From Sulfitobacter sp. (GTDB taxonomy: Bacteria; Pseudomonadota; Alphaproteobacteria; Rhodobacterales; Rhodobacteraceae), in NCBI GenBank assembly GCA_024637305.1, contig JAGXFI010000169.1, positions 1-38,062 on the forward strand: 38,062 bases of DNA. The letters are read 5' to 3'. The notes under the pieces were generated by a model. The model searched no databases and was not told the origin of the DNA. It saw only the letters and a program-made list of their open reading frames with translations. Shown one piece after another: positions 3,511 to 27,142 of this stretch (the first letter of the stretch is position 1; the number at the start of each line of letters is the position of its first letter). The position numbers were made by a program, and so were the translations under genes.

Positions 3511-4152
3511 ATGCGCAAGGTAATCATCGGCATCTTCACAATTTTCCCTGCATTGGCGCAAGGCGAGACGGTTATTGCCGCGCTGGGCGACAGCCTGACC
3601 CAAGGTTACGGACTACCAGCCGAGGACGGCTTTGTTTCGCAGCTTGGCAACTGGCTCTCGTCGCAGGGGGTGGAGGTGCGCCTGATAAACGCAGGCGTAT
3701 CGGGCGATACGACGGCGGGCGGTCTTGCTCGGGTGGATTGGACCCTGACGCCCGAAGTTGACGCCATGATCGTCACGCTGGGGGGGAACGATCTCTTGCG
3801 GGGGCTGGACCCGCAGCAGGCCCGCGCAAACATCGACGGCATTCTTAACGCCGCGAAAGACGCCGACGTCGAGGTGCTGCTGGTCGGGATGCAGGCACCG
3901 GGTAACTTCGGTGCCGACTATAAAGCCCAATTCGACACGCTCTATCCTGACCTCGCTGAAAAATACGGCACGCTTTATCTGCCGAGTTTCTTCAGCGGCT
4001 TGATGGAGGAGGGTGTGTTGCCGGATCCGGCAGGCCTGCGGGCTTGGTTTCAGCCCGACGGCATCCATCCGAACGCGAAGGGCGTTGCGCGTATCGTCGA
4101 AGGCATCGGCCCCTCTGTGCTTGCCTTGATCGAGGAAGCGCAGAGCGATTGA
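3511..4152 (+). CDS. tesA: Arylesterase / TesA-like GDSL (SGNH) hydrolase
   Basis: MRKVIIGIFTIFPALAQGETVIAALGDSLTQGYGLPAEDGF; GDSL block, GGNDLLRG block and DGIHPN block. Confidence 0.88.
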   Translation: MRKVIIGIFTIFPALAQGETVIAALGDSLTQGYGLPAEDGFVSQLGNWLSSQGVEVRLINAGVSGDTTAGGLARVDWTLTPEVDAMIVTLGGNDLLRGLDPQQARANIDGILNAAKDADVEVLLVGMQAPGNFGADYKAQFDTLYPDLAEKYGTLYLPSFFSGLMEEGVLPDPAGLRAWFQPDGIHPNAKGVARIVEGIGPSVLALIEEAQSD

Positions 4153-4154
4153 AA

Positions 4155-4176
4155 CGGGGCAAAACCGATCGCCCCG
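4155..4176. terminator. Possible convergent terminator hairpin
   Basis: CGGGGC-aaaaccgatc-GCCCCG between convergent tesA and csp; on the minus strand followed by only TTTC. Confidence 0.35.
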
Positions 4177-4194
4177 CTTGAGTTCATGATCGCG

Positions 4195-4401
4195 TCAGGC
4201 CAGTGCGATATTCGTTGCGCTTTCGCGGCCGTCGCGGCCCGGTTCGATGTCGAAGGTGACCTTCTGATCATCTGCCAACCCTGTAAGGCCGGCACGCTCT
4301 ACCGCCGAGATGTGAACGAACACATCCTTGCCGCCCGAATCCGGCGCGATAAAGCCAAAACCTTTAGTTGTATTGAACCATTTTACGGTACCCGTAGCCA
4401 T
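4195..4401 (-). CDS. cspA: Cold-shock protein (CspA family)
   Basis: MATGTVKWFNTTKGFGFIAPDSGGKDVFVHISAVERAGL; canonical RNP1/RNP2 motifs. Confidence 0.95.
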   Translation of the reverse strand: MATGTVKWFNTTKGFGFIAPDSGGKDVFVHISAVERAGLTGLADDQKVTFDIEPGRDGRESATNIALA

Positions 4402-4547
4402 GAGCCCAGTCTCCTTTACTAATACTGCCCGCAGAATGCGGCAGCGCGGCTCGGTCTGTCCAGAATCGTACTGAGCCTTAAGGAGCAGTTCTCGTTCAGG
4501 TCTTCACTTGCCCTCAAAATTAATGCGGCCCATCTGCGAAAAATCAA
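4402..4547 (-). promoter_or_regulatory. Putative csp promoter and 5' leader
   Basis: On the minus strand: TTGATT (4547-4542), 16-nt spacer, CATTAA (4525-4520), then ~112-nt leader ending AAGGAGACTGGGCTC-ATG; sequence blocks shared with the leader at 23659-23774. Confidence 0.6.
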
Positions 4548-4853
4548 GTATTTTGCGCGTAAATGACGCGATGAGCGAAGCCTTGCCGGATAATTTCACA
4601 AGATTGAAACATTAACAGGCTCTTCAACCCCCGGATGAGGGCTAAACAAGCCAATAGACTCAGGAAAATGCCGTCTTTGACGCAATTCTCCGCCGTACCG
4701 GAGGGACTATCGGTAATCATGCTGATTCCCTTCATTGCCCAAGCTGTATCATCGAAACCGGAGGAAACCGTGAAAGGGGCATCTGATCGCAAGTCGCTGC
4801 CCCAAAACCGTCCAAAACGGCTTGAGCCATCAAAAGCCGCCATCTGCAATAAT

Positions 4854-23623: not shown

Positions 23624-23774
23624 TTGATTTTAACAGCGTCTGGTGCCATATACCCGACTGCAGACGTTATCTATTTCGACCCACTGTCTCCCTTACGGCT
23701 TCAGTCACTCGAACTACGACCGACTACGCCAAGCTATCGCACACCGCGGATGGCACTACTAAGGAGACTACGGA
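23624..23774 (+). promoter_or_regulatory. Putative csp promoter and 5' leader
   Basis: TTGATT (23624-23629), 17-nt spacer, CATATA (23647-23652), then ~116-nt leader ending AAGGAGACTACGGA-ATG; shares blocks with the csp leader at 4402-4513. Confidence 0.6.
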
Positions 23775-23981
23775 ATGGCTACTGGCACCGTAAAATGGTT
23801 CAACACTACCAAAGGCTTCGGCTTTATCGCACCCGATGGCGGCAGCAAAGACGTGTTTGTGCACATCTCTGCCGTTGAGCGCGCAGGCCTGACAGGTCTG
23901 GCCGACAACCAGAAAGTGACCTTCGACATCGAAGCAGGCCGTGATGGCCGCGAATCTGCGACCAACATCGCGCTCGCATAA
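23775..23981 (+). CDS. cspA: Cold-shock protein (CspA family)
   Basis: MATGTVKWFNTTKGFGFIAPDGGSKDVFVHISAVERAGL; differs at few residues from the copy at 4195-4401. Confidence 0.95.
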   Translation: MATGTVKWFNTTKGFGFIAPDGGSKDVFVHISAVERAGLTGLADNQKVTFDIEAGRDGRESATNIALA

Positions 23982-24007
23982 GCTTTTGTCGCTTACACGA
24001 TATTTTG

Positions 24008-24040
24008 ACCGGCCATTCTGCAACGGATGGCCGGTTTTTT
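24008..24040 (+). terminator. Rho-independent terminator after csp
   Basis: ACCGGCCAT-tctgcaacgg-ATGGCCGGT followed by a T run. Confidence 0.88.
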
Positions 24041-25940: not shown

Positions 25941-26110
25941 ATACTAGCTACTTCGAAGGTAAGGAAATGGCTGGGCCGTCGCTGGTCGAGGCAGAAAATG
26001 ACGCACCCCACTGGGTGATGAAAACAACATGTTAACTCGAGTGGCTTTAAGCATTGTTTGGCGGGCGCTTTCGTTTATCAAGATCGCCAACAACGAAAAT
26101 AAGCAGGCAC

Positions 26111-27142
26111 ATGGCACACAAAACCTCAGAAGATCGGGAAATCCCCGAAATCAGCAACGCGCGCGATTGGGTAAAGATCCTGTCCAACTACCGCGAACCA
26201 AGCGCGCTACGCAGCTCGTTCGAGCTTGCCGTCACCTTGGGACCATTCTTGGCGCTCTGGGCTTTGGCTTGGTGGGCGCTTTCGATCAGTGGGTGGCTGG
26301 CGCTTGCGATCTCGCTTTGCAACGCGGGATTTTTGCTGCGTTTGTTCGCCATCCAACATGATTGCGGACACAGTGCGTTCTTCAAGAACCGCGTGATGAG
26401 CGACTGGTTGGGGCGCTGCATCGGCGTTCTCACGCTTACGCCCTATGACGTCTGGCGGCGCACCCATTCGATGCATCACAGTTCGTCAGGCAATCTGGGA
26501 CGTCGGGGGATGGGGGATGTCTGTACCCTGACCCTCGAGGAGTATCAGCAGCTCACGCCGTTGGGGCGTCTGGGCTACCGGTTGTACCGGCATCCGATCG
26601 TCCTGTTTGGGCTTGGTCCGGGATACCTGTTTTTCCTCCAGAACCGGATACCGCTGGGGTTGATGGAAAAGACGAGATATTGGGTCAGCGCGATGGGTAC
26701 TAATGTGGCGATTTTCGCCGTGCTGATGGCTATTTTGTACTTTGGCGGTATCATGCCGATCTTGCTGATATTCCTGCCCTCAACCCTGCTGGCGGCAACC
26801 GCCGGGGTCTGGTTGTTTTACGTACAGCATCAGTTTGAAACGACACATTGGGCGGAGGATGAGGACTGGAACCTGCATGACGCTGCGCTGAAAGGCAGTT
26901 CCCATTATGTGTTGCCAGCCGCTTTGCAATGGATCAGCGCCAATATCGGCATCCATCATGTTCACCACCTCTATAGCCGAATCCCATTCTACCGGCTGCC
27001 GGAAGTGCTGCGTGATCATGCGGTGCTGGCCGACGGGAACCGCATGACCATTCGCGAAAGCTTTGCCAATGCGCGGTTGCACCTGTGGGACCCGCGAACG
27101 AAACGTCTGCTGTCCTTTGAACAGGCGAACGCGACAGCGTAA
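26111..27142 (+). CDS. Membrane fatty acid desaturase
   Basis: Histidine boxes HDCGHSAFF, RRTHSMHHSSSGN, HHVHHLYSRIPFY. Confidence 0.9.
   Translation: MAHKTSEDREIPEISNARDWVKILSNYREPSALRSSFELAVTLGPFLALWALAWWALSISGWLALAISLCNAGFLLRLFAIQHDCGHSAFFKNRVMSDWLGRCIGVLTLTPYDVWRRTHSMHHSSSGNLGRRGMGDVCTLTLEEYQQLTPLGRLGYRLYRHPIVLFGLGPGYLFFLQNRIPLGLMEKTRYWVSAMGTNVAIFAVLMAILYFGGIMPILLIFLPSTLLAATAGVWLFYVQHQFETTHWAEDEDWNLHDAALKGSSHYVLPAALQWISANIGIHHVHHLYSRIPFYRLPEVLRDHAVLADGNRMTIRESFANARLHLWDPRTKRLLSFEQANATA

Follow-up and report, generated by a model that had tools for sequence, protein, structure and literature searches.

The window, the whole stretch of 38,062 nucleotides of Sulfitobacter sp. DNA analyzed here, carries two csp genes on opposite strands, each preceded by a leader RNA and a promoter, as follows.

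4195-4401, minus strand: csp coding sequence, 68 aa, start codon ATG at 4401 (open reading frame)
4402-4513, minus strand: leader RNA of this csp, about 112 nt, a divergent copy that lacks the 5' box and canonical helix P5 (match to covariance model R1 at 4410-4511, 52.4 bits)
4520-4547, minus strand: promoter of this csp, TTGATT at 4547-4542, 16-nt spacer, CATTAA at 4525-4520 (sequence and family layout)
23624-23652, plus strand: promoter of the second csp, TTGATT at 23624-23629, 17-nt spacer, CATATA at 23647-23652 (sequence and family layout)
23659-23774, plus strand: leader RNA of the second csp, about 115 nt, a canonical member (R1 match at 23662-23769, 88.1 bits)
23663-23669, plus strand: conserved 5' box GACGUUA beside the predicted transcript start (of 93 leaders, 55 have ACGTT and 62 have ACGWT)
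23775-23981, plus strand: second csp coding sequence, 68 aa, start codon ATG at 23775 (sequence and protein search)

The two proteins are 94% identical, bearing out the claim, made in an earlier sequence-only reading of this DNA, that the two genes are nearly identical. A third csp of the same genome (contig C120) is without the leader by protein search and covariance model, and R1 matches nothing in this genome other than the two window copies. At 2 kb downstream of the plus-strand csp the window has a gene for a fatty acid desaturase (26054-27142, plus strand), and in Ruegeria conchae such a gene (L277 1596-2609) comes directly after the csp that bears the leader; this proximity suggests a link to cold membrane adaptation.

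Transcript starts are predicted from the sequence at about 4513 for the minus-strand csp and about 23659 for the plus-strand csp. The promoter layout that had been proposed as common to both genes is present at each as a -35/-10 pair, and its spacing and the length of the leader recur in Rhodobacteraceae, where csp promoters read CTTG(C/A)NN, 17 nt, CATAT, followed by a leader of about 117 nt. The spacer is 17 nt in 79 of 93 csp upstream regions of this family, and the median distance from the -10 element to the ATG is 123 nt. Across upstream regions L001-L092, such promoters resemble alphaproteobacterial heat-shock (RpoH) promoters more than the TTGACA type, which is odd for a cold-shock gene.

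The two leaders resemble each other well beyond chance, as their similar lengths and shared blocks had led the sequence-only reading to propose: global alignments of their last 60, 90, 120 or 160 nt score above all 1000 dinucleotide shuffles, and when the Shine-Dalgarno (SD) region is left out the score still exceeds 992 of 1000. Searching 150 genomes of Rhodobacteraceae in the broad sense, we found csp in 149 and took leaders from about 95 csp genes. These share one layout, with GACGUUA near the predicted start, followed in order by UAUCGACC, CUGUCUCC (or CUGCUCC, CUGUUUUCC), CGGC, CAGUC, UCGAUC, GAC, GCC, a hairpin CUGCCGCA/GCGGGCAG and the SD. A GACGUUA-type box lies near the predicted +1 in most leaders and may be compared with the E. 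coli type of cold box, a UGACGUACAGA-like element at the transcript 5' end. The minus-strand copy has neither this box nor canonical P5, in line with its lower covariance model score (52 versus 88 bits). Two UCGA motifs, one in the 5' region and one in the P3 loop, are nearly invariant in leaders L001-L092 and often unpaired in the fold model.

In the MFE fold, both window copies form a three-way junction that is closed by helix P1 and encloses P3 and P4, with the SD about 100% paired. The elements of this fold, and of a further helix at the start codon, are the following.

4480-4485, minus strand: anti-SD CUCCUU, 5' strand of P1 (pairs with the SD in the MFE fold at all temperatures tried; family P1 covariation)
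4410-4417, minus strand: Shine-Dalgarno AAAGGAGA, 3' strand of P1 (sequence, MFE)
4448-4477, minus strand: P3 stem-loop GGCUC...GAGCC (MFE; family P3 covariation)
4425-4444, minus strand: P4 hairpin CUGCCGCA-UUC-UGCGGGCAG, in DNA CTGCCGCA/TGCGGGCAG (compensatory changes in 7 of 7 pairs, 90 relatives)
23686-23691, plus strand: anti-SD GUCUCC, 5' strand of P1 (covariation, MFE)
23761-23768, plus strand: Shine-Dalgarno AAGGAGAC, 3' strand of P1 (MFE, anchored covariation)
23696-23730, plus strand: P3 stem-loop CGGC...GCC, including the conserved CAGUC and, at 23709-23712, a UCGA loop (MFE, family conservation and covariation)
23733-23754, plus strand: P4 hairpin GCUAUCGC...GCGGAUGGC, a compensatory version of the minus-copy hairpin (compensatory changes, MFE, sequence)
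23769-23792, plus strand: P5 hairpin, UACGG at 23769-23773 with CCGUA at 23788-23792 (Thr-Val codons), the AUG lying between the strands (synonymous covariation, held-out test)

Covariance analysis of csp leaders, which the sequence-only reading had suggested, shows that P1, P4 and P5 covary and P3 does so more weakly; a lack of leader conservation or covariation in related csp genes, named there as counting against the idea, was not what we found in Rhodobacteraceae. The strong hairpin noticed just upstream of the minus-copy SD is P4, in which compensatory changes, such as CUGCC/GGCAG to CCGCU/AGCGG, affect all 7 pairs among 90 relatives; P4 reaches z -12.6. The inner part of P3 has a weaker but clear signal (z -4.8), and its GGC/GCC core is invariant and speaks neither for nor against pairing. 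RNAalifold on the MAFFT alignment recovered P4 only, because gaps displaced the SD; P1 was therefore tested alignment-free and then with anchors.

P1 has an anti-SD of CUCC or UUCC across leaders. The duplex of each leader's own anti-SD and SD averages -10.25 kcal/mol compared with -8.45 kcal/mol when SDs are dealt anew (z about -8.6, 0/2000), and a second test gave -8.48 versus -7.22 kcal/mol (z -8.3); such permutations correct only partly for shared ancestry, and slid registers and segment pairs outside the fold model, which have the same ancestry, gave no stabilizing signal. With UCC and GGA as anchors, P1 scores 0.087 for covariation in register versus 0.002-0.010 when slid, with pair 4 being C-G in 59, U-A in 13 and U-G in 8 leaders, and pair 6 being U-A in 29 and G-C in 28, a signal lost in slid registers. 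The 34 held-out leaders gave z -2.8 (4/1000). Evolution has thus maintained the pairing between the SD and an upstream anti-SD, as expected of a cis-regulatory leader that sequesters its SD.

An unexpected signal between the SD region and the coding region (z -7.0) was traced to positions -8 to -1 and codons 5-6 (Thr-Val), that is, to P5, which itself reaches z -11.7 in Rhodobacteraceae csp genes. When shuffling was confined to genes identical in their first nine residues, which leaves only synonymous differences to contribute, the observed value was reached in 0 of 1000 trials, and the partners can be followed by eye: ACCGUG with CACGG, ACCGUA with UACGG, ACCGUC with GACG, ACAGUG with UCAC and ACUGUG with ACAG. 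P5 recurs in the 34 held-out leaders (z -5.3, 0/1000), and 30 csp genes of other alphaproteobacteria show no such signal (z 0.1). It brackets the start codon in most copies, including the plus-strand copy of the window.

Other pairings gave no covariation signal in the leaders: an alternative ACUG:CAGU hairpin around the anti-SD, pairing of the 5' UAUCGA with UCGAUC, and pairing of the 5' region with the anti-SD, SD or coding sequence. Those among them that are nearly invariant may still form. Among the alternatives tried, no mutually exclusive fold with covariation emerged.

The leader is a feature of csp genes of Rhodobacteraceae. The order sample consisted of 61 genomes, every one from this family, and R1 had matches in 56 of them. 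Carriers include Ruegeria conchae, Phaeobacter porticola, Cereibacter sphaeroides, Rhodobacter sp. CZR27, Yoonia and Primorskyibacter, which point to Rhodobacteraceae in the broad sense as the family to which the window belongs. Each of the 35 fetched matches that were checked lies directly upstream of csp, the restriction to one gene family expected of an SD-sequestering cis-regulatory leader. The class sample comprised 192 genomes, 3 from Rhodobacteraceae and 189 outside, and a true copy was found in 1 of these 189, again before csp (L125 1501-1613, 72.6 bits); this copy in another family may have arrived by horizontal transfer, or the leader may be spread more widely but sparsely. One further, weak match in the class genomes (E 0.06) is not at a csp, and in csp upstream regions of about 25 other alphaproteobacterial families the leader was not found. 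A degenerate DNA pattern proved too short for a scan of all genomes, most of its matches being due to chance; at 59 of these loci the covariance model recognized only three true leaders. The alphaproteobacterial analogue of the E. coli leader that had been envisaged thus stands as a conserved, structured csp leader but not as one general to the class. In another alphaproteobacterial family, two neighboring csp genes (L255, upstream of 1500 and 2038, plus strand) share another conserved sequence upstream, CCAAAGGCCGTCGCACGACT..AAGACAAGACTGCG, which may represent a second family of csp leaders unrelated to this one.

We consider it likely that the leader is a cis-acting RNA of Rhodobacterales csp genes that closes the translation initiation region, and that a cold-shock or Csp-linked signal raises translation. 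P1 would pair the upstream anti-SD with the SD and close the three-way junction with P3 and P4, and P5, immediately downstream, would bracket the AUG by pairing -8 to -1 with codons 5-6. Ribosome binding would be limited in this closed state, and a signal from cold shock or free Csp would lead to more translation, through opening by Csp or a DEAD-box helicase or through refolding during transcription in the cold. Since the SD is closed in the MFE fold, and more so than in shuffled leaders (0.895 versus 0.734 for the family), the default state is expected to limit initiation. In this way the leader probably controls when Csp protein is made.

Several other explanations have to be weighed against this one. 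Conservation of sequence only, for example of DNA elements with an incidental RNA fold, would suit the GACGUUA, UCGA and CAGUC blocks, for which pairing is not demonstrated; as an account of the leader it is scarcely credible and is refuted for P1, P4 and P5 by their covariation, which for P1 and P5 extends to held-out leaders. Sequestration of the SD by P1 in the fold model, together with promoters that resemble those of heat-shock sigma factors, would also fit a heat-type RNA thermometer in which SD and AUG are closed when cold and melt on warming. The likeness to ROSE and fourU thermometers lies in the upstream complementary strand that closes the SD; here, however, the anti-SD CUCC/UUCC sits in a three-way junction, and energy models predict no melting across physiological temperatures, SD pairing from 5 to 42 C staying at 0.90-0.91 in the family average and 0.99-1.0 in both window copies. 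A simple melting thermometer therefore finds no support in them, and we regard a heat-type thermometer as improbable. As energies alone give no temperature switch, the trigger would be a protein (Csp, DEAD-box helicase or S1), co-transcriptional folding or cleavage. The cspA leader of E. coli is about 160 nt long, with a GACGU box at its 5' end and a hairpin just before the SD, a layout similar to that of the leader described here, and Rfam family RF01766 (cspA) matches both loci (4149-4573 and 23725-24039, 53.3 and 32.9 bits). Neither score reaches the gathering threshold of 78 bits, though, and a scan of the leader alone gives nothing for RF01766 up to E=1. It is the csp coding sequence that aligns with the model; homology to Rfam cspA is rejected on this ground, and a true E. 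coli-type thermosensor with a homologous leader is very improbable. RF01766 spans coding sequence, and sub-threshold matches at csp can be mistaken for thermosensors. The Rfam scan proposed in the sequence-only reading gave no family for the leader itself. Like the E. coli cspA leader, with which that reading compared it, this leader is predicted to act on the ribosome-binding site, but its fold is different.

More weight belongs to an mRNA-stability element, in which the UCGA motifs would be RNase E entry sites exposed in a temperature-dependent manner and P1, P4 and P5 would shield the message. Two UCGA motifs occur in 74 of 98 leaders (mean 1.65 versus 0.42 in shuffles), certain RNase E sites mapped by TIER-seq in R. 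sphaeroides have a UCGA pattern (PMC6238624), and the title of a 2004 paper cited there reports temperature-dependent processing of the cspA mRNA of Rhodobacter capsulatus (Jager et al. 2004), so that control of decay has to be taken seriously, whether as a partner of translational control or as its rival. By itself, however, a stability element leaves unexplained why P1 tracks the exact SD and P5 the synonymous codons around the AUG, and UCGA is absent from the minus-strand copy; as the sole explanation we judge it unlikely.

Structured csp leaders are a known kind of element, of which the Rhodobacteraceae leader is probably a new, SD-occluding form. Like the E. coli cspA leader, it is a long csp leader in which structure governs access to SD and AUG, the coding region is involved and the SD is sequestered in one form; unlike that leader of about 160 nt, it has about 115 nt, a different fold and no RF01766 match, and its thermodynamic model shows no change with temperature. 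The E. coli leader (Giuliodori et al. 2010) is described in PMC6386945 and PMC9947658. The R. capsulatus case, as its title presents it, is one of post-transcriptional control, in a bacterium of the same order and in a gene that probably belongs to the same family. Caulobacter crescentus cspA and cspB are controlled post-transcriptionally via the 5' UTR, according to the citation of Mazzon et al. (2012) in PMC8552747, and are alike in being alphaproteobacterial genes with 5' UTR control, but they lie outside Rhodobacteraceae; beyond this family R1 found a true copy in only one class genome. Agrobacterium cspA has a 227-nt leader assigned as a 5' UTR "thermosensor" through Rfam cspA (PMC3738593); it too is an alphaproteobacterial csp leader, and the other alphaproteobacterial csp upstream regions examined are without the Rhodobacteraceae leader. 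The leader matches no Rfam family and no description of it was found in the literature searched, Jager et al. (2004) and Mazzon et al. (2012) being outside that search.

In E. coli, too, the SD is sequestered in the 37 C form of cspA mRNA, from which CspA promotes translation in the cold (PMC9947658); for the closed initiation region proposed here, opening with the help of Csp is on this account the simplest guess. We put forward, tentatively and as a possibility, a cis-regulatory RNA family of Rhodobacterales not described before, whose two adjacent helices, one at the SD and one at the AUG via synonymous positions of codons 5-6, would gate csp translation and be opened by Csp itself in an autoregulatory manner.

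The cspA leader of E. coli is the textbook cold thermosensor, and csp leaders elsewhere can be called thermosensors since RF01766 covers coding sequence. The Rhodobacteraceae, to which Cereibacter sphaeroides belongs, are a large and tractable family, and their csp leader is a clear and independent case of leader structure in which base pairs have been tested. This leader offers specific pairs for mutation and shows that csp codon choice co-evolves with the leader, making it testable whether leader control of csp arose more than once and whether such leaders sense temperature, Csp level or RNase E.
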